From the NCBI GenBank assembly GCA_014380515.1, contig JACMJS010000145.1, positions 1 through 35,569 of the forward strand: a stretch of DNA of 35,569 nt, in the 5' to 3' direction. This document shows positions 5,032-35,332 of this stretch, piece by piece (positions within the stretch are counted from its first letter, which is position 1; every line of letters starts with the position of its first letter). A model generated the notes under the pieces. That model did not search any database. It had not been told where the DNA came from and saw only the letters and a program-made list of their open reading frames with translations. Made by a program: the position numbers and the translations under genes. Source of the DNA: Chlorobiales bacterium (GTDB lineage Bacteria; Bacteroidota; Chlorobiia; Chlorobiales; JACMJS01).

Positions 5032-5748
5032 ATGCAGCTCGCCGTCAATGTTGATCACATCGCCACCTTGCGCAATGCCCGCAAGGACGTTCAGCCTGAT
5101 CCGGTTGCAGCAGCAGTGCTCGCGGAACTTGCGGGCGCGACCGGCATCGTTTGCCACTTACGCGAAGACCGTCGGCACATCAACGACCGCGACTTGGCCT
5201 TGTTGCGAGCCACCGTCAAAACCAAACTTGATTTGGAGATGGCGGCGACGGATGAAATGAAACGCATTGCGATTCAAACCAAACCCGATCTTGTTACGCT
5301 CGTCCCCGAGCAACGCGAGGAACTGACCACCGAAGGCGGTCTCGATGTAAAAAAACATCGCGCCTATCTGAAGTCCTTCATCGCTGAACTTGCGTCGCAA
5401 CATATTCCGGTAAGTTTGTTCATCGATGCGGATGAAGAAACGGTTTCGATGGCGGCGGAACTTGGCGCGGCGTTTATTGAACTCCACACCGGCCACTACG
5501 CGAATCTTTCGCTGATGAGCGCGGCAGAAATCACGGCGGAACTGCGGCGATTGCAACATGCGGCGGAACTTGGCGGCAAACTCGGGATGCGCGTCGTGGC
5601 AGGACACGGCCTCAACTATACGAATATTACTTTGTTCAAATCCCTGCGCGGCATCGAGGAAGTCAGTATCGGCCACGCACTGATTGCACGGGCGTCGCTC
5701 GTCGGCATTACCGCAGCGACGAAAGAAATGCTGCGGCTGCTCGTGTGA
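5032..5748 (+). CDS. pdxJ: Pyridoxine 5'-phosphate synthase PdxJ
   Basis: A 238-residue TIM-barrel enzyme that condenses 1-deoxy-D-xylulose 5-phosphate with 3-amino-2-oxopropyl phosphate to give pyridoxine 5'-phosphate, the last ring-forming step of the DXP-dependent vitamin B6 pathway. Family hallmarks are complete: NVDHIATLRNAR at 6-17, CHLREDRRHI at 41-50, the catalytic Glu at 69 (LDLEM), LVPEQREE near 90-97, ELHTGHYA near 150-157 and VVAGHGLNY with His192. Length is normal. The start has no Shine-Dalgarno sequence. The SemiSWEET-like gene and guaD follow on the same strand, likely co-transcribed, though there is no obvious functional link. Confidence 0.97.
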   Translation: MQLAVNVDHIATLRNARKDVQPDPVAAAVLAELAGATGIVCHLREDRRHINDRDLALLRATVKTKLDLEMAATDEMKRIAIQTKPDLVTLVPEQREELTTEGGLDVKKHRAYLKSFIAELASQHIPVSLFIDADEETVSMAAELGAAFIELHTGHYANLSLMSAAEITAELRRLQHAAELGGKLGMRVVAGHGLNYTNITLFKSLRGIEEVSIGHALIARASLVGITAATKEMLRLLV

Positions 5749-5825
5749 TTACAGTTACTTTTGTTTTGCAACTGCCAACCAACCTTAAAACTTTTCCGCC
5801 CCTTCACAGCGGTGCCCTTCATACG

Positions 5826-6095
5826 ATGTTAATTTACTTCGATACTTTTGTCAGCACGGTCGGATTGCTGTGCATCGTACTCTGCTGGATTCCGCAAACG
5901 ATGGAAACCTTGAAAGTGCGCCGGTGCACCGTTAATCGTTCGTTTTTGATCTTGACTTTCGTCGGCGCGGTTTCGCTCACGCTGCATTCGGTGTTCATCA
6001 GCGATGTGCCGTTTATGATTCTTAATTTCTGCGCCGCCGTTGGCAGCAGCATCAATCTTTACTTTTCAATCTATCCGTCTGAACATCCGAACTGA
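5826..6095 (+). CDS. PQ-loop / SemiSWEET-like small membrane protein
   Basis: An 89-residue protein with three hydrophobic segments (VSTVGLLCIVLCWIPQ, FLILTFVGAVSLTLHSVF and MILNFCAAVGSSINLYFSI). WIPQTMETLKVRR in the first segment is a PQ-loop motif, and length and topology match bacterial SemiSWEETs, which dimerise to transport sugars or other small solutes. The track begins at a GTG overlapping the pdxJ stop. I prefer the ATG at 5826, because the extra 27 residues are not membrane-like and would lengthen the protein beyond the family norm. guaD starts 5 bases after the stop, so the two are translationally close. The transported molecule is unknown. Confidence 0.72.
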   Translation: MLIYFDTFVSTVGLLCIVLCWIPQTMETLKVRRCTVNRSFLILTFVGAVSLTLHSVFISDVPFMILNFCAAVGSSINLYFSIYPSEHPN

Positions 6096-6100
6096 TTTCC

Positions 6101-7369
6101 ATGGGCGTCATCTATAAAGCGACATTGCTCTCGCCCGAAACCCCCAGCAAAATCAAGGCTTGGCAGCAAGGCTACCTCGCCGTTTCCGCCCGCGGCGTCA
6201 TTGAAGACATTGGCCAACTCGACCTTCGAGAAAAATATCCGTCATACATCTTCAAAGATTTTTCCGGATCGCTCATCACGCCAAGTTTCGTTGACCTCCA
6301 CAATCACTTGCCGCAATATGCCTTTGCGGGTTTGGGCGATGGCGAACTGCTGACATGGTTGAAAAAATATGCCTTCCCGCGCGAGGCGATGTTCAGCGAT
6401 GCCGCGGTTGCCCGCGCCGCCGCCGAACATTTTTTCAATGACTTGATTTCCAACGGCACCACCACCACCGTAACCTACAGCACCGTTCACAAGTCCTCGA
6501 CGGACATGGCGTTCGAGGCTGCCCATAAATCAGGACTTCGCGCGGTGATCGGGAAAGTTGTGATGACGGCGAACGCGCCGAAAGGGTTGCGCGAATCTGA
6601 AACGAACGCCTTGAACGATACGGAATCATTGATCGGAAAATGGCACGGTGCCAATGACAAACTTTTTTATGCCATCACCCCGCGCTTTGCGCCCAGTTGT
6701 GGTTTCGGCGTAATGCAGTCGCTTGCGAGGCTTGCGGAGCGGTACGGTGTCTATGTGCAAACGCATCTGGCTGAGAACGCCGCGGAACTGGCGGAGGTCA
6801 AACGACTTTTTCCGAAGTTCAAAAGTTATACCGATGTGTATCGTAAAGCCGGATTGCTCACACCGAAAACCATTGCCGCTCACGGCATTTATTTAAGCGA
6901 TGCGGAATTGAAAATCATCGAGCACACCGAAACCAAACTCGCCCATTGCCCGACCTCAAACCGGTTTCTCAAAAGCGGCATCATGCCGTTTCGAAAATAC
7001 CAGCAGCGCGGCCTTTCTCTCGGCTTGGGCACGGATGTCGCGGGCGGCTACAGCCTTTCGATGCTGAACGAAATGAAAGAGGCGATTGAAAACTCGAAAC
7101 TGCGCAGTCTTTTTTTTAGCCCGGAAGATTCGCCGCCGATGTCCGTTGCCGAAGCCTTTTATCTTGCCACGCTCGGCGGCGCAAAAGCCCTTTCATTGCA
7201 ACACCGCACCGGCAGCCTTGCAAAAGGTAAAGACGCCGACTTTCTCATCATCGATATCGAACCCGCGTTGCCCCTACTCATGCCGCTTGAACGGCTCTCG
7301 AAACTTATCTATCGCGGCGATGCCGGTTGGATTCGACACGTCTTTGTTCAGGGCAAACGGTTGAAATAA
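6101..7369 (+). CDS. guaD: Guanine deaminase (amidohydrolase family)
   Basis: A 422-residue metal-dependent amidohydrolase. The pattern matches guanine deaminase, which converts guanine to xanthine and ammonia in purine salvage or catabolism: PSFVDLHNHLPQYAFAG (His67, His69 as zinc ligands), THLAEN (His222), AAHGIYLS (His261), AHCPTSNRFL and GLGTDVAGG (Asp312). The HxPQ after the first metal motif and the HCPxSN motif separate it from chlorohydrolase and imidazolonepropionase relatives. Length is normal. It follows the SemiSWEET-like gene by 5 bases. Other amidohydrolases of the TRZ/ATZ group are a less likely alternative. Confidence 0.88.
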   Translation: MGVIYKATLLSPETPSKIKAWQQGYLAVSARGVIEDIGQLDLREKYPSYIFKDFSGSLITPSFVDLHNHLPQYAFAGLGDGELLTWLKKYAFPREAMFSDAAVARAAAEHFFNDLISNGTTTTVTYSTVHKSSTDMAFEAAHKSGLRAVIGKVVMTANAPKGLRESETNALNDTESLIGKWHGANDKLFYAITPRFAPSCGFGVMQSLARLAERYGVYVQTHLAENAAELAEVKRLFPKFKSYTDVYRKAGLLTPKTIAAHGIYLSDAELKIIEHTETKLAHCPTSNRFLKSGIMPFRKYQQRGLSLGLGTDVAGGYSLSMLNEMKEAIENSKLRSLFFSPEDSPPMSVAEAFYLATLGGAKALSLQHRTGSLAKGKDADFLIIDIEPALPLLMPLERLSKLIYRGDAGWIRHVFVQGKRLK

Positions 7370-7373
7370 ATTT

Positions 7374-7835
7374 TCACTGTGCGAGTCCTGCAGCGAGCAA
7401 TGAACACACGAGTGCTCCTGCACCGAGCAATGCCCGAAGCACAATCACACTATCCCACCGCGTTTGTAATTCCTTTGCATCCGGCAGCACTGAACCCTCA
7501 ACCGCTGCTTGCGTCAACTTCCGATTGACCGGTTGAACAACCGTGAAATAAACCGCCAGCCAAACCAAAAGGCAAACCAGCGCAGCAATTGAAAGCCAAC
7601 CTGAACTCATGCCGAAGTGCAACACTGCGCCCGCGATACTTGAAAGAACGCCGAGCATGATGAAGACCGGCATCCGTGCATCGGCGGTTTCATGCAAGCG
7701 TCCCATCACTTCCGTCAAGGCTGCGTTGCCCGTGCGTTTCAAGGCTGTTTGCCCCGCGACGGCGAAAAACATATCCGCGCCATACACCGCGCCGATACCA
7801 AGCACGGCCACGCTTGAAATAATTAATGACAGCAT
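7374..7835 (-). CDS. DUF1772 (anthrone oxygenase-like) membrane protein
   Basis: A 153-residue protein with four hydrophobic segments (LSLIISSVAVLGIGAVYGADMFFAV; MPVFIMLGVLSSIAGAVLHF; SIAALVCLLVWLAVYFTVV; VLRALLGAGALVCSLLAAGL) and the linker VQPVNRKLTQ. This is the layout of DUF1772, related to fungal anthrone oxygenase; the bacterial role is unknown. The track start at 7904 adds 23 residues that fit no family and overlap the end of the outer membrane protein gene. I therefore choose the ATG at 7835 (MLSLIIS). Its stop is 4 bases past the convergent guaD stop, with no clear terminator between them. Confidence 0.72.
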   Translation of the reverse strand: MLSLIISSVAVLGIGAVYGADMFFAVAGQTALKRTGNAALTEVMGRLHETADARMPVFIMLGVLSSIAGAVLHFGMSSGWLSIAALVCLLVWLAVYFTVVQPVNRKLTQAAVEGSVLPDAKELQTRWDSVIVLRALLGAGALVCSLLAAGLAQ

Positions 7836-7860
7836 TTTGAGTCTGTAGGTTTGTGTGATT

Positions 7861-8348
7861 TTAGAAAAAGAATACCCAACCGATTCCCGGGTTTGGTGCA
7901 ACACGAAGCACGCGCTCTGATGCCATCAAAGCCGAAACACCGAGCCGCACATTAAGGCCGCGCCAAATTACCAGCGAAATCCAGTTTCAATGATCAGCTC
8001 GCTTTTGTTTTTATAGTCGCGGTCGAGGCCGTAGAGATATGAAACGCCGGAGTAGAACGACGACGCACTTTCACCGCCGATACGCGCGGGCAAGTACCAA
8101 AAACTCACCCCTGTACGAATGAACGACGTTGTTTCGTTTGATTCGAAATTCGTTGGATAGTAACCCAGATGTACGGAAATAAATTGCTGACGATACTCCA
8201 GCCCGATGGACGGATTGCGAAACAAATTGACACTGAGTTCGCTTCGCGGCAGCCATGGCGCTTGCGACGCCAAGTCCTGTGCGGCGTCGTCGGTGGCGAA
8301 AGAATAAACTGTAATCGAGAAAGCGGCAAGGAAAAGATTGAAACGGGT
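7861..8348 (-). pseudogene. Outer-membrane beta-barrel protein gene, frameshifted and lacking its start
   Basis: On the minus strand, codons from about 8348 read a signal-peptide-like stretch (RFNLFLAAFSITVYSFA), then beta-barrel-like sequence with alternating aromatic residues (FRNPSIGLEYRQQFISVHLGYY, TSFIRTGVSFWYLPARI). The frame stops with TAA at 7970-7968 directly after ELIIETGFRW. A second frame continues at once with WRGLNVRLGVSALMASERV and ends PGIGWVFFF at 7861, a typical outer-membrane C-terminal phenylalanine. One missing base near 7968 would join them. No start codon or family-like sequence lies before about 8348, where a truncated gene on the other strand begins. Family unknown. 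The frameshift could be a sequencing error; the lost start is harder to explain that way. Confidence 0.65.
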
Positions 8349-9086
8349 TTGCAGGACGTCTCGATGGCCGACGCTAAAAAAACGCTCGCCCGTAATCGCG
8401 CGCTGCACACCGCCGGAACACTTTCCGATGCCGACTTACAAAAATCTGAAACCGTCATGCAGACTGCGAAAGCAAACGCCGCCGCCGCTGCCGCGCAATT
8501 TGCAAACACATTTGTTAACGCGCCGTTTGGCGGCCGCATCATTAAAAAACTTATCGATGTGGGTGGCACGCCTGCAACCGGCATCTGCACCATCGTTGAT
8601 GATTCGGAAACCATCATAGAAGTTGATGTCAATCAGAACGACGTTGCCAAACTCAAACCTGATCAACCCGCGTTGGTTACGCTTGATGCCTATCCGCTGA
8701 TGGAATATGCCGCCGTAGTCAAAACCATTATGCCCGCCGCCGATAAAACCAAAAACACCGTGCAAGTCAAAGTCCGCATCACCAAGCCGGACGATACCTT
8801 TAAGTATCAAATGAGTGGCAAAGTTTTTTTTGTAACTGAGCCGCAAACGGAGAACCGGAAAATCAAAGCTCAATTGGTTGTTTCTAAATCCGCCGTCTTC
8901 GAGGACAACGGTCAGAAAGCCGTCTGGCGGATCGAGGATGGAAAAGTATTTCGTCGCCCCGTCAAAACCGGCGAGGACTTAGGCGACCGCCTCGAACTCG
9001 TGAGCGGACTTGCCGCCGACGATCAAGTGATTTTGAATCCACAAGCGGCTCAGTTCAAAGACGGCATGCCGGTAGCGGTGAAGTGA
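8343..9086 (+). pseudogene. Truncated RND/HlyD-type periplasmic efflux adaptor
   Basis: The C-terminal two thirds of a membrane fusion protein (periplasmic adaptor of a tripartite efflux pump). Visible parts are the end of the alpha-hairpin (KTLARNRALHTAGTLSDADL...), the second lipoyl half (FVNAPFGGRIIKKLIDVGG), the beta-barrel (TIIEVDVNQNDVAKLKPDQ) and the membrane-proximal domain (VFRRPVKTGEDLGDRLELVSG). The N-terminal signal, first beta-barrel strand, first lipoyl half and first helix are missing. Upstream of about 8343 the frame is only antisense of the outer-membrane-protein fragment, so the 8169 start in the track is artificial. An ATG at 8364 could start a shortened product, but without a signal peptide it would not be exported. 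No pump or TolC gene is adjacent. Confidence 0.75.
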
Positions 9087-9129
9087 AAGTTCACTTAAAG
9101 TTCTTCAACAACCCTTAAATCAGTTTTAC

Positions 9130-9573
9130 ATGCGACGACTTTCGCTTTATATCTCGATCATCTTACCGCTTCTCTTTCTTGCTTCGTCGTCCGCCGCGGC
9201 TCAAACTTCGGCTACCGACATTTGCGGGGAGTGGCTTACTTCCGATGAGGCCGGAAAAATTTTGATTTACCAAGCAACCGACGGTACGCTGGAAGGCAAA
9301 ATCGTTTAGGTCAGGCAAACGGGCGACAGCCTTGACGCTCAAAATTCAAATCCCGTGCAATCGCCTGCTCGTCCGAAACCCGGCGCGATGGTTTTGAAAG
9401 GGTTGCGATTCAAAGGGGAAAATGACTGGGGCGACGGCATTATTTATGAGCCGCAACATGGCGGTCAGTACAGTTTATTCATTTCGATGAACGGGAAAAA
9501 TACGCTCCATCTCAGAGGCTACCTCGGCATTTCCATTTTCGGCAGGACGGAAATATGGACGCGGGCGAAATAA
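9130..9573 (+). pseudogene. DUF2147 family protein with an in-frame amber codon
   Basis: From ATG at 9130 the frame gives a signal peptide (MRRLSLYISIILPLLFLASS...AAA) and then the DUF2147 pattern: ICGEWLTSDEAGKILIYQ, LEGKIV, a TAG stop at 9307-9309, VRQTGDSLDAQN, MVLKGLRF, DGIIYEPQHGGQYS and RGYLGISIFGRTEIWTRAK. The reading frame is the same on both sides, and the stop replaces the tryptophan that usually follows LxGKIV (TGG to TAG, one base). The ORF track shows only the second part (from 9355). A strong terminator follows the stop. The intact family is a small exported protein of unknown function. It is either a nonsense-mutated gene or a read error. Confidence 0.82.
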
Positions 9574-9597
9574 AAAAGGCTCGATGAAGAGCCTTTT
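9574..9597. terminator. Bidirectional rho-independent terminator
   Basis: Arms AAAAGGCTC and GAGCCTTTT with a 6-base loop (gatgaa), followed by ggttttt. It separates the converging DUF2147 and SDR genes. Confidence 0.85.
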
Positions 9598-9640
9598 GGT
9601 TTTTGATGTTGGTGTTGGAAGCCTTGAAGAGTGAGCAAGT

Positions 9641-10390
9641 TTAAACTTCTCCGAAGCCACCGGCGACGACCATTTCCGCACCGAGCATATATGAAGAATC
9701 AGACGACGCAAGGAATAAAATCACCTTTGCGACTTCCTCCGGCGTGCCAAACCGCTTGAGTGTGGGCAGTGATGCCATTCCGTCTAGAACCTGTTTCTCT
9801 ACTTCAGGCGGCATGCCGAGCCGTCCGAAAATTGGCGTTGCAATCGGGCCGGGGCTGCACACATTGACACGAATGTTTCTACCGGCCAAATCTGCTGAGA
9901 GCGTTCGGGCGAACGACCGCACTGCCGCTTTGCTCGCCGAATAGACGCTTGCGTTTGCCATGCCGATCTGATTGACGACTGAAGAGACAATCACAATCGA
10001 ACCGCCATCGTTGAAGAGCGGCAAGGCTTTTTGAATCGTGAAGAACGCGCCTTTGACGTTGATGTCCATGATTTCATTGTAGAGCGATTCGTCGGTCGCT
10101 TCCACCGGCGCACCTTTGAAGATGCCCGCATTGACAACCAAGATGTCGATCTTGCCAAACTTTTCTTTCGTCTTTGCGATAAGTTTGTCAATATCGGCGA
10201 GCGACGACACATCGCCTTGCACGGCCAGTGTTTCGCCGCCGATGGCTTTCACCGATTCATCAAGCGTCTTCTGGTTGCGGCCTGAGATGACGACCTTCGC
10301 GCCCTCCGCCTGAAATTCTTTGGCCGTCGAAAGTCCGATACCGCTGTTGCCGCCCGTAATGACGGCGACTTTGCCTTCTAATTTTTTCAT
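9641..10390 (-). CDS. SDR family NAD(P)-dependent oxidoreductase
   Basis: A 249-residue classical short-chain dehydrogenase/reductase. The nucleotide-binding motif TGGNSGIG is at residues 12-19, the NAG motif near 88 (VVNAGIF), and the catalytic Ser-Tyr-Lys set lies in IVSSVVNQIGMANASVYSASKAA, followed by NVCSPGPIATPI. SGRN after the second beta-strand suggests NADP(H) preference. The substrate is unknown. The ArsR-type regulator gene lies upstream on the same strand with a 110-base gap that contains an inverted repeat, so this enzyme is a likely target of that regulator. The leader has no Shine-Dalgarno sequence. Confidence 0.92.
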   Translation of the reverse strand: MKKLEGKVAVITGGNSGIGLSTAKEFQAEGAKVVISGRNQKTLDESVKAIGGETLAVQGDVSSLADIDKLIAKTKEKFGKIDILVVNAGIFKGAPVEATDESLYNEIMDINVKGAFFTIQKALPLFNDGGSIVIVSSVVNQIGMANASVYSASKAAVRSFARTLSADLAGRNIRVNVCSPGPIATPIFGRLGMPPEVEKQVLDGMASLPTLKRFGTPEEVAKVILFLASSDSSYMLGAEMVVAGGFGEV

Positions 10391-10449
10391 TTTTGTAAAT
10401 GAGATGCGTTTGAGAAATGAGTTAACCTGAGAGAAATAAAAAAATATGT

Positions 10450-10473
10450 ATTGATATATCTAAATGTATCGAT
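10450..10473 (-). promoter_or_regulatory. Candidate ArsR-family operator upstream of the SDR gene
   Basis: Arms ATTGATATAT and ATGTATCGAT, separated by CTAA, form a 10-4-10 inverted repeat with two mismatches, 60 bases before the SDR start. A related half-site (ATCAATA) recurs before the arsR gene at 10796-10811. The A/T-rich dyad is of the type bound by ArsR/SmtB dimers. The assignment is inferred from position and symmetry. Confidence 0.5.
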
Positions 10474-10501
10474 GTGTAAGTCCAAAAAAAGTTGCCGGAT
10501 T

Positions 10502-10780
10502 TCAGGCGTCAGCGACTTTTCCGAGAAACACGGTCAGGGCTTCGATGTTCTTTTGGTTGAGCGAGAGTATCGAAGTACGTCCGTCTTTTTCTACCGAGAC
10601 AAGGCCTGATTCCACAAGCAATTGGATGTGATGCGACATGGTTGGCTGCGCCAGCGATGTGAGTTTTTCGGTTTCAGAGCAATTCATCGTGCCGCGCTTC
10701 GCAAGTTCTTTCACAATTTTCAGGCGGTTTTTATCTCCGAGAGCTTTGGCGGCTTTTACAATGAAGTCATCGTTTGTCAT
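10502..10780 (-). CDS. ArsR/SmtB family transcriptional regulator
   Basis: A winged-helix protein of 92 residues from the preferred start (MTNDDFIVKAAKALGD). The pattern ALGDKNRLKIVKELAKRGTMNCSE, then the recognition helix LAQPTMSHHIQLLVESGLVSVEKDGR and the wing SILSLN, is typical of ArsR-type repressors. The metal-binding CxC of ArsR is not seen in the recognition helix, so an organic or redox signal is more likely than arsenic. The track start 30 bases upstream would place the operator-like repeat at 10796-10811 inside the gene, which argues for the shorter form. It precedes the SDR gene on the same strand. Confidence 0.87.
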   Translation of the reverse strand: MTNDDFIVKAAKALGDKNRLKIVKELAKRGTMNCSETEKLTSLAQPTMSHHIQLLVESGLVSVEKDGRTSILSLNQKNIEALTVFLGKVADA

Positions 10781-10795
10781 GGCTGCGGGTAATAC

Positions 10796-10811
10796 ATTGA
10801 AGTTTATCAAT
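10796..10811 (-). promoter_or_regulatory. Candidate autoregulatory operator before arsR
   Basis: ATTGA-agttta-TCAAT is a short perfect inverted repeat, 16 bases before the chosen arsR start. It shares ATCAATA with the larger dyad before the SDR gene. Weak by itself; the recurrence gives it some weight. Confidence 0.35.
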
Positions 10812-10941
10812 ATGTTTCAAGACCGAAAAAAAATTAAATTTATTTTCTAACGGCCACTGTTATCGGATCACCATTCGAAGGTAACGCGGTTCTTATCCGT
10901 TTTCAATTTTATTTTCACACACCCTTTGCGATATAACTCCG

Positions 10942-11649
10942 ATGCAACTCATACTTCCCATTCTTGTTTTGGCTACGCACAACCGCGATAAGATCAAAGA
11001 GATTACCGGCCTTGCGGCACCGTTACCGATTACGATCAAAACGCTCGATGACTTTGCGGACTTTCCCGAAGTAGATGAAACCGAAGCAACGCTCGAAGGC
11101 AATGCCCTGAAAAAAGCCCGAGAGATTTATGCGGCGGTCGGTGGGAAGTTTTCAGAGGTGCCTGAAGCGACGAGCGTCATCGTCCTTTCAGACGATACGG
11201 GGCTTGAGGTTGATGCGCTCGGCGGTGCGCCGGGCGTGTATTCGGCGCGATATGCGTCGCGGCAAGGTGAGAAGGTAAGCTATGCGCAGAATGTTGAAAA
11301 GCTTCTGAGCGAGATGGACGGCATAGTGAACCGGCGTGCACAGTTCAGGACGGTAGTTGCGATGGTTGGAAACTTCAGCGGTTTGGAAAAGGGCAAAGTC
11401 AGCGGCTTTGGAAAACCAAACGGGGCGTCCTATTTTGAAAAAAGTTTTGAAGGCGTTGCGACGGGAGAAATCACCGCGGAGCAGCGCGGCCAGAGCGGGT
11501 TCGGCTACGATCCCGTTTTTTTATCCGACGCCCTCCGTAAAACCTTCGCCGAACTTTCAAGCACGGACAAAAATCTGGTCAGTCATCGCGGCATCGCCGT
11601 CCGCAAAGCCTTGTCATTTTTGCAATCGCTGATGACTGCGCCGGAGTGA
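10942..11649 (+). CDS. rdgB: RdgB/HAM1 family XTP/dITP diphosphatase
   Basis: A 235-residue house-cleaning pyrophosphatase that hydrolyses non-canonical purine nucleotides (XTP, dITP, ITP) to the monophosphate, keeping them out of DNA and RNA. Motifs are clear: LVLATHNRDKIKEI near the N-terminus, ETEATLEGNALKKARE, VLSDDTGLEVDALGGAPGVYSARYA (catalytic DD), GFGYDPVFL and SHRGIAVRKAL. It is slightly longer than the E. coli protein (about 197 residues) owing to inserts after residue 65 and near 150. The downstream roadblock gene starts within 15 bases, so the two are probably co-transcribed. Confidence 0.95.
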   Translation: MQLILPILVLATHNRDKIKEITGLAAPLPITIKTLDDFADFPEVDETEATLEGNALKKAREIYAAVGGKFSEVPEATSVIVLSDDTGLEVDALGGAPGVYSARYASRQGEKVSYAQNVEKLLSEMDGIVNRRAQFRTVVAMVGNFSGLEKGKVSGFGKPNGASYFEKSFEGVATGEITAEQRGQSGFGYDPVFLSDALRKTFAELSSTDKNLVSHRGIAVRKALSFLQSLMTAPE

Positions 11650-27163: not shown

Positions 27164-27235
27164 TGGGGTGTCGCCAAGCGGTAAGGCATCGGCCTTTGGA
27201 GCCGACATTCCTAGGTTCGAATCCTAGCACCCCAG
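27164..27235 (+). tRNA. tRNA-Gln (anticodon TTG)
   Basis: A cloverleaf can be folded by hand. Acceptor TGGGGTG pairs with CACCCCA. The anticodon stem TCGGC/GCCGA carries loop CTTTGGA with anticodon TTG (reads CAA and CAG). The T arm is CCTAG-GTTCGAAT-CCTAG. The discriminator base is G, and the genomic sequence continues CAT, so CCA is not encoded. Downstream sequence shows no clear terminator. Confidence 0.95.
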
Positions 27236-33057: not shown

Positions 33058-33441
33058 CTATTTCGCTGGCGGTGGCGAGTATTTGACGATGTCAATGCCG
33101 ACGCCGTTTGGGTCTTCTATGGCAAAATGTCGGTCGCCCCAAGGTTCGTCTCGGATGTCAATTTTAATTTCAACATTTTGTCTCTTGAGATCGCCGTAAA
33201 TTTTATCGGCATCGTCCACTTCAAGCGTCAAGTAGATACCTTGTCCCTGAAATGGCTTTTGAAAAAGCGGCTGCTGCGATGGATGCTGGGGCAGTAAGAA
33301 ACTGATTTCCGCTTGGCGGTTCGGCGTGTGTAACAAGAGATAAAATTCATTTTCAAAGGTTACGCCAAAGCCCAACAGACGGGTATAGAAATTCTTGCTT
33401 GCTGCCAGATTTGGCGTTACGATGCCTGCGTTGAGTTTCAT
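33058..33441 (-). CDS. VOC family protein (glyoxalase/bleomycin resistance fold)
   Basis: A 127-residue protein from ATG 33441 (MKLNAGIVTPNLAASKNFY); the track start upstream adds 24 residues that do not fit. The paired beta-alpha-beta pattern is clear: SKNFYTRLLGFGVTFENEFYLLLH and a second half VDDADKIYGDLKRQNVEIKIDIRDEPWGDRHFAIEDPNGVGIDIV with the usual DPNG. It is the second gene of a VOC pair; the upstream VOC gene ends 31 bases before it. Substrate unknown. Confidence 0.88.
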   Translation of the reverse strand: MKLNAGIVTPNLAASKNFYTRLLGFGVTFENEFYLLLHTPNRQAEISFLLPQHPSQQPLFQKPFQGQGIYLTLEVDDADKIYGDLKRQNVEIKIDIRDEPWGDRHFAIEDPNGVGIDIVKYSPPPAK

Positions 33442-33472
33442 TTCGTTTCGTTTCAGTTTGAGATGGGAAACT

Positions 33473-33823
33473 TTACTTTCCTCCGGTGAAGTGCGGATTG
33501 TAGATAAGGTCAAGGTGTTTGCCGAACGGGTCGATCACCGCAGCCATCTTGATGCCATCGCCGACATCGTGAATGTCGCCATCGGGCGTTGCGCCTGCGT
33601 CAAGCAGCGATTGCCGCGCGGTTTCGATATTTTCCACGCCCCAATAAGTGGCTACACTTTCTTTGGCGTTCGGGTCTAACCCAAGTTCATAGCCGCCGAC
33701 GTTGAAGCCGACATAATACGGCTCATCGAAATACGGCGCGATACCCAGCGTTTTCGCGTACCACGCTTTGGCTTTCTGTAAATCGGGCGCGGCATAAATG
33801 ACGGTTCGAAGTCCGAGAAACAT
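33473..33823 (-). CDS. VOC family protein
   Basis: A 116-residue VOC protein: LRTVIYAAPDLQKAKAWYAKTLGIAPYFDEPYYVGFNVGGYELGLDP in the first half, then ENIETARQSLLDAGATPDGDIHDVGDGIKMAAVIDPFGKHLDLIYNPHF in the second. The DPFG before the last strand and a Glu/Asp metal-binding position are typical. It is the first gene of the pair and divergent from the DUF2452 gene with 79 bases between them. The enzymatic role is unknown. Confidence 0.9.
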   Translation of the reverse strand: MFLGLRTVIYAAPDLQKAKAWYAKTLGIAPYFDEPYYVGFNVGGYELGLDPNAKESVATYWGVENIETARQSLLDAGATPDGDIHDVGDGIKMAAVIDPFGKHLDLIYNPHFTGGK

Positions 33824-33902
33824 GTTTAATTCTCCTTATGGTTTCGGAATTGTTTTGCGGCGAAGCAGGGTTAGCACTCGCAACTTCAATTAAAATTTTT
33901 CT

Positions 33903-34361
33903 ATGTCTGAACAGCACGGCAAACCTATAGATGTTTCCCGCATCGATCTTGAAAAGATGAAAGAGAAAACCGCCGCGTCGCCTGCGCTCTTGCCTTATGC
34001 GCACACCGCCGGAAGCGCACTCATCCGGCCTGAGGACGCCGGGAAAATTACCGGACGCGCCGTCGCCGCGATGCACCAGCAGACGGAAATGCAGATGTCG
34101 CAGCTCTATAAACAAATGGAATTGCTTGCGGCTCAAGCCAGCGCGATCAAACAGCGCGTCGAGATTTCCGAACGCATCTACCTTGCCAAAATGCCCTGCG
34201 AACCGCTCATCGGCCACACCTATTACCTCTACAAGAAAGACGACGACACGGACACGCTCTCGCTCATCGCGCCAGATGATTGGGGACGCTCGAAACCCTT
34301 TAAAGAATTTATTGCCGCCGTTCATCTCCTCGCCGATCACACGTGGGAAATGGTCTCTTGA
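33903..34361 (+). CDS. DUF2452 family protein
   Basis: A 152-residue protein whose pattern fits DUF2452: LPYAHTAGSALIRPEDAGKITGRAVAAMHQQTEMQMSQLYKQMELLAAQASAIKQRVEISERIY, then FEPxIGHxYYLYKKDDDTDTLSLIAPDDWG. The middle is a long amphipathic helix, likely coiled coil. Function unknown. It is the only plus-strand gene in a run of minus-strand VOC genes. Confidence 0.82.
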   Translation: MSEQHGKPIDVSRIDLEKMKEKTAASPALLPYAHTAGSALIRPEDAGKITGRAVAAMHQQTEMQMSQLYKQMELLAAQASAIKQRVEISERIYLAKMPCEPLIGHTYYLYKKDDDTDTLSLIAPDDWGRSKPFKEFIAAVHLLADHTWEMVS

Positions 34362-34402
34362 AAAAACCAAGGGCGGCTCAGAGTGCGAACCGCCCGTTGG
34401 TC
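34361..34402 (-). terminator. Terminator between DUF2452 and the VOC pair
   Basis: ACCAA-GGGCGG (34366-34376) pairs with CCGCCC-g-TTGGT (34390-34401), with one bulged base. On the minus strand it is followed by TTTTTT (34366-34361), so it is best oriented to end the VOC transcript, while also overlapping the end of the DUF2452 gene. Confidence 0.75.
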
Positions 34403-34414
34403 AAGAAATCAGGG

Positions 34415-34810
34415 TCAGTTCCATGAATGCAGGGCAACGTGATTGCCCTCCGTGTCTTGAAACACCGCCATGTATCCCGCCTTCTCGCCGATGTGCATCT
34501 TCGGCACAATGACTTTTCCGCCTGCCGATTCAACGCGCGCGAGCATCACTTGTAAATCCTCGCCGCCGTTGAGATACACCAGCGACCCTTTGTCCGACGG
34601 CTCATAATGCTCGCCCTTGACAATCGCGCCGCTGACGGTGGTTTGAGACGTGTTATCCGTCGGAAAGACGCCCATCCGCAGATGATTGAACATCTCATCT
34701 CTGATCTCGACACCGATTACGGTGTCATAAAATTTTTTCGCTTTCTCGAAATTATTGACCGGAATTTCGAACCAGTTGATTGCGTGCATCGTCATTGTTG
34801 TCGTCTCCAT
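34415..34810 (-). CDS. VOC family protein
   Basis: A 131-residue VOC protein from ATG 34810 (METTTMTMHAINWFEIPV); an ATG at 34789 (MHAINW) is also possible. HAINWFEIPVNNFEKAKKFYDTVIGVEI and DLQVMLARVESAGGKVIVPKMHIGEKAGYMAVFQDTEGNHVALHSW resemble the single-domain VOC group related to PhnB and glyoxalase-like proteins, widespread in Bacteroidota. The stop of the upstream VOC gene is 5 bases before the start, so they are co-transcribed. Confidence 0.9.
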   Translation of the reverse strand: METTTMTMHAINWFEIPVNNFEKAKKFYDTVIGVEIRDEMFNHLRMGVFPTDNTSQTTVSGAIVKGEHYEPSDKGSLVYLNGGEDLQVMLARVESAGGKVIVPKMHIGEKAGYMAVFQDTEGNHVALHSWN

Positions 34811-34815
34811 TGAAA

Positions 34816-35214
34816 TTAGTTTTGGGTGGTTAAGTGTGCATAGATATTGACGATTCTGCCGTCGGGGTCTTTCACCCTGCCGAACCGCTGCCCCCAAAAC
34901 GCATCCCGAGGCACTGAATAACTTTCATACCCCGCCGCTATTAATTTTGTGTAGAGATCATCCACTTCTTTCGGGCTGTTCACCCTAAACTGCAAACTCA
35001 TGCTTTGGCCGTCGGGCAGTGTATAACTCGGTACGGCTTGATTTGCAGCGGCTTCCGTCAGAAAGCCCATCACCGGGCCGTCCGGCGTTTCATAATCCAC
35101 ATTGAACTCGTTGTCCAAACCTTCCGGTATCGGCAAGCCCAGTGTCCGGTAAAAGCCAAGCGTCTTGCCCATGTCCGCCGCAATGATGCCGACGGTTTGT
35201 AGTTTGATTGCCAT
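34816..35214 (-). CDS. VOC family protein
   Basis: A 132-residue VOC protein from ATG 35214 (MAIKLQTVGIIAADMGKTLGFYRTLGLPIP). The second half (MSLQFRVNSPKEVDDLYTKLIAAGYESYSVPRDAFWGQRFGRVKDPDGRIVNIYAHL) includes the FWGQRFGRVKDPDG motif of glyoxalase/bleomycin-resistance-type proteins. The track start 14 codons upstream is unlikely. It is the upstream gene of the second VOC pair; the WYL regulator gene ends 118 bases before it on the same strand. Confidence 0.9.
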   Translation of the reverse strand: MAIKLQTVGIIAADMGKTLGFYRTLGLPIPEGLDNEFNVDYETPDGPVMGFLTEAAANQAVPSYTLPDGQSMSLQFRVNSPKEVDDLYTKLIAAGYESYSVPRDAFWGQRFGRVKDPDGRIVNIYAHLTTQN

Positions 35215-35332
35215 TGTTGCTCCTGTAAAAATTAAGTTGATGTATTCCGGCTGCACCTCGCAACCGGCACTGCAAACATAGCGGCGGCGACTGACAGCCC
35301 TATGTCAGTAGCCTTCAGAGAAAAAAATTAAT

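Follow-up and report, generated by a model that had tools for sequence, protein, structure and literature searches.

How did three neighbouring genes of a Chlorobiales bacterium come to be broken side by side, and to what kind of locus did they once belong? The stretch of DNA analysed here (the window, 35,569 nucleotides) is one whole contig of a draft genome of 3.57 Mb in 420 contigs, estimated to be 97% complete, and the nearest genomes available for comparison share only the order with the source genome. Part of what these relatives encode may be reminiscent of green sulfur bacteria. We consider it quite probable that the damaged patch is a genuine and recent pseudogene cluster, in which a deletion fused two unrelated cassettes and the remnants then decayed. 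The features on which this reading is built are the following:

5032..5748, plus strand: pdxJ, the left synteny anchor
7374..7836, minus strand: intact gene of an Anthrone_oxy (PF08592) membrane protein, about 24 bases downstream of the outer-membrane protein (OMP) remnant
7861..8340, minus strand: small outer-membrane beta-barrel pseudogene, start codon gone, one frameshift near 7968-7974, C-terminal part in a different frame
8338..8361, no strand assigned: junction interval, OMP 5' end against adaptor interior, placed from sequence and alignments
8346..9086, plus strand: membrane-fusion (adaptor) pseudogene, N-terminal third missing, no internal stop, natural 3' end
9130..9573, plus strand: DUF2147 pseudogene, in-frame TAG at 9307-9309, four departures from 29 near-invariant positions
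9574..9597, no strand assigned: bidirectional intrinsic-terminator-like hairpin directly 3' of DUF2147
10942..11649, plus strand: rdgB (Ham1-like), the right synteny anchor

The minus-strand frame of the OMP gene runs from 8345 down to 7971 (...RFNLFLAAFSITVYSFA...ETGFRW) and then meets a stop at 7968-7970. The C-terminal end of the protein (IWRGLNVRLGVSALMASERVLRVAPNPGIGWVFFF, followed by a stop codon), comprising the last 35 residues, lies in the shifted frame and shares 54% identity with the corresponding part of the intact relative in genome G009. The signal peptide is retained, as are the FRNPSIG and GYYPTNFES motifs of the family. Alignment with 12 intact relatives of ~151 aa shows a few departures from the family. 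The earlier claim of a missing start and a frameshift near 7968 holds, though the loss at the start is small, since only the initiator Met and perhaps a few more residues are gone.

The adaptor remnant is different in kind. It comprises 246 residues without a stop, matches TIGR01730 at model positions 80-321 of 322 (130 bits, cut-off 94.9) and has a codon usage normal for the contig. Aligned relatives have ~105-185 residues, mostly 140-150, ahead of its first residue, so that the model match and the alignment together confirm the absence of the N-terminal part. By the established domain order of the family, half of the lipoyl and hairpin domains would be missing.

In DUF2147 there is a single in-frame TAG, at codon 60. 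It was thought to replace a conserved Trp; the TAG itself is there, while the conservation turns out to be partial, with Trp in nine of 12 relatives but Gly in G007 and G001, both among the nearest. The part after the stop scores 64.7 bits on its own with PF09917 (cut-off 27), and the four departures from near-invariant positions are the most among the 13 proteins compared. Both the OMP and the DUF2147 remnants have codon-usage scores lower than those of all intact genes. Recoding of TAG as a sense codon was rejected, as TAG terminates three of 27 window genes and interrupts only one conserved frame. A list of Pfam hints apparently places DUF2147 in a lipocalin-like family (PMC7431613).

What the OMP once stood next to is suggested by its relatives. 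In 13 Bacteroidota relatives the intact protein is usually of ~151 aa, and the remnant is 44-67% identical to these proteins. For one of them (locus L066) the predicted structure, at pLDDT 87, consists of one small barrel; it most resembles designed small barrels, Opa60, the N-terminal barrel of OprF, OmpX and OmpA. Judging from this model, the OMP is a ~150-aa OmpX/OmpA-like barrel and not a TolC-type channel. Neither the remnant nor the 151-aa protein of L066 has any Pfam match, to the OEP domain included, and an identity as an efflux outer-membrane channel (TolC/OEP, ~400-450 aa) was ruled out by size, by the missing OEP match and by the small-barrel fold.

At all 12 Bacteroidota OMP loci examined, a ~187-aa protein is encoded immediately upstream, and in L066 it matches cNMP_binding. 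The next gene on encodes a DUF4386-like membrane protein at nine of the 12 loci; at a tenth, that gene comes one position later. DUF4386 was judged from sequence, with Pfam confirmation for L066. Loci L065-L076 thus present a conserved Bacteroidota cassette of a ~187-aa cNMP-binding regulator, a small barrel OMP of ~151 aa that belongs to no Pfam family, and the DUF4386 membrane protein. In G009 (L050:8574-9815, minus strand) a DUF4386-OMP fusion lies beside a divergent AraC-type regulator. The likeness of the window to this cassette is confined to the OMP; the regulator and DUF4386 are not beside it, and an Anthrone_oxy-family membrane protein comes next instead.

The adaptor had been called an RND adaptor, of which membership in the adaptor family stands (TIGR01730) and the RND type is not clearly borne out. 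Its best 16 matches in 395 phylum genomes, at 34-38% identity, are nearly all followed by genes for an ATPase of the MacB type and a permease of the FtsX type, and MacA is the closest match among solved structures. No homologue above 38% was found in the 395 phylum genomes, in 98 order genomes or in plasmids, and neither a pump gene nor a pump remnant was found in the window. On sequence grounds the adaptor appears most like the MacA-type periplasmic adaptors of MacAB-like ABC exporters (TIGR01730 superfamily) and is not clearly of the RND type. It differs from them in lacking the N-terminal part and in having no ABC ATPase or FtsX gene after it, and its tree placement is not firm: it sits on a long unresolved branch.

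DUF2147 leads to yet other operons. The remnant shares 51% identity with its G007 counterpart, a similarity on a par with that of the G009 and G001 copies to the G007 one (~49%). G007 and G001 both carry a TetR-DUF2147-TolC-adaptor-RND pump operon, and so does G009, with an SDR gene inserted. Compared with this operon, the window is without TetR, TolC and pump, DUF2147 comes after the adaptor, and the two adaptors are not orthologous (26%). The G009 and G001 pumps share 66-71% identity with that of G007, against only 30% for the best pump of the source genome, so the operon is absent from it. The window's order of adaptor and DUF2147 nonetheless has precedents, since in G005 and G002 a YbhG-like adaptor is followed directly by DUF2147 and then by ABC genes. 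More generally, the DUF2147 genes at L049, L052, L053, L055 and L062 form part of TetR/TolC/adaptor efflux operons that contain an RND pump in some cases and YbhFSR-like ABC genes in the others. In the window the adaptor-DUF2147 unit probably ended at the hairpin at 9574..9597, beyond which lies an opposite-strand gene; because this terminator-like hairpin is directly 3' of DUF2147, a pump gene further along the same unit is probably not to be expected.

The surrounding genes had been described as intact, and they are: the other window genes are full length by Pfam matches or open reading frames, and a search by Pfam and reading frames found no further broken gene in the 35.6 kb. Random damage to three genes among ~30 would strike three consecutive ones with a probability of ~0.7%. 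In eight of ten order-level relatives pdxJ and rdgB are adjacent on the same strand, pdxJ first and 42-562 bases apart; in the remaining two they are on separate contigs. The window keeps this order and orientation but has a spacing of 5.2 kb, with the broken patch in between. The best reading is that the patch belongs to a block of accessory genes, specific to the lineage, that was inserted between pdxJ and rdgB. This stretch (5748-10942, ~5.2 kb) holds a SemiSWEET-like gene, an amidohydrolase, Anthrone_oxy, the pseudogenes, an SDR and an ArsR gene. Elsewhere, four glyoxalase/VOC-like genes form a one-strand run at 33058-35304 (minus strand), two of them confirmed by Pfam and two judged from sequence. 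No structured RNA was found at the junction, the only match in the window being a distant tRNA gene (27164-27235, plus strand; Rfam RF00005).

Could the damage lie in the assembly and not in the genome? A misjoin at ~8345 together with consensus errors would mimic three broken genes, and the draft state of the genome (420 contigs), the abruptness of the junction and the fact that two of the lesions are single-base changes would all suit such an artefact. We nevertheless regard it as unlikely. To the left of the junction is pdxJ and to the right rdgB, both placed and oriented as they usually are in the order, and a chance misjoin would hardly restore ancestral synteny. The patch is single-copy, with no second, intact copy of its genes elsewhere in the genome, so there is no repeat to mislead the assembler; GC content is even across the junction, and the other genes of the contig show no breaks. 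The lesions themselves differ in kind, one being a junction, another a frameshift and the third a nonsense codon, and are confined to three neighbours. Taken together, these observations indicate that the lesions are real and speak against the poor assembly patch that had been offered as an alternative. The original prediction favoured a divergent efflux locus, with the OMP on one strand and adaptor and pump on the other, which lost a shared 5' region. The head-to-head orientation and a junction at both 5' ends agree with it, but we find it quite improbable. OMP relatives sit between a regulator and DUF4386, with no adaptor gene in the surrounding stretches of up to 8 kb on each side; an intact head-to-head OMP/adaptor pair was sought and not seen among the 13 OMP loci or in G009, relatives at order level at the closest. 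The small OmpX/OmpA-like barrel, the lack of a pump or its remnant in the window, and the hairpin with the opposite-strand gene after DUF2147 also argue against it.

It is very unlikely, too, that the truncated adaptor, read from an internal start or as a 305-aa frame from 8169, is a functional short protein that has been kept. The frame is open over 246 homologous residues with codon usage normal for the contig, and an in-frame ATG at 8364 could serve as the internal start; however, such a protein would have no signal for export, and half of its lipoyl domain and the first helix of the hairpin would be missing. Between 8169 and 8345 the frame is simply the OMP gene read in antisense, and a promoter scan gave no site ahead of the frame. 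That a shortened adaptor is kept as the product of a newly formed gene, its 5' end being the former OMP antisense (the 305-aa frame from 8169), seems extremely improbable.

We therefore return to a pseudogene cluster formed by deletion and decay. This part of the original prediction is supported as the best reading by the three types of lesion in consecutive genes among otherwise intact ones. The cassette of the OMP family differs in kind from that of the adaptor and DUF2147, and the junction at 8338-8361 couples the first codons of the OMP to the hairpin region of the adaptor. As the simplest history, with the nearest relatives compared sharing the order only, we infer a single deletion event. 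It would have taken the OMP start codon and upstream region (the upstream neighbour being a cyclic-nucleotide-type regulator in Bacteroidota relatives), whatever lay beyond, and the promoter and N-terminal part of the adaptor. The adaptor would thereby have become inoperative and the downstream DUF2147 would have lost its promoter; the OMP frameshift and the DUF2147 nonsense change may then have arisen under relaxed selection, leaving a patch that would now be functionless. With just one frameshift, one nonsense codon and reading frames that are largely preserved, the pseudogenes appear to be recent. A repeat- or IS-mediated junction was rejected, as no repeat at 8345, inverted or otherwise, was convincing and no transposase was seen in the window.

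The patch is thus routine bacterial gene loss and not a new system. As in ordinary pseudogene clusters produced by deletion and relaxed selection, a junction truncation, a frameshift and a nonsense codon affect adjacent accessory genes while the core flanks are intact; there is no notable difference, the three genes here seemingly coming from two cassettes. For one draft genome, this corrects the misleading label of a divergent RND efflux locus. Two by-products are of some use: DUF2147 recurs in the TetR/TolC efflux operons of the order, both RND (G007, G009 and G001) and YbhFSR-like ABC (G005 and G002), and a Bacteroidota cassette links a cyclic-nucleotide-type regulator, a small barrel and DUF4386.
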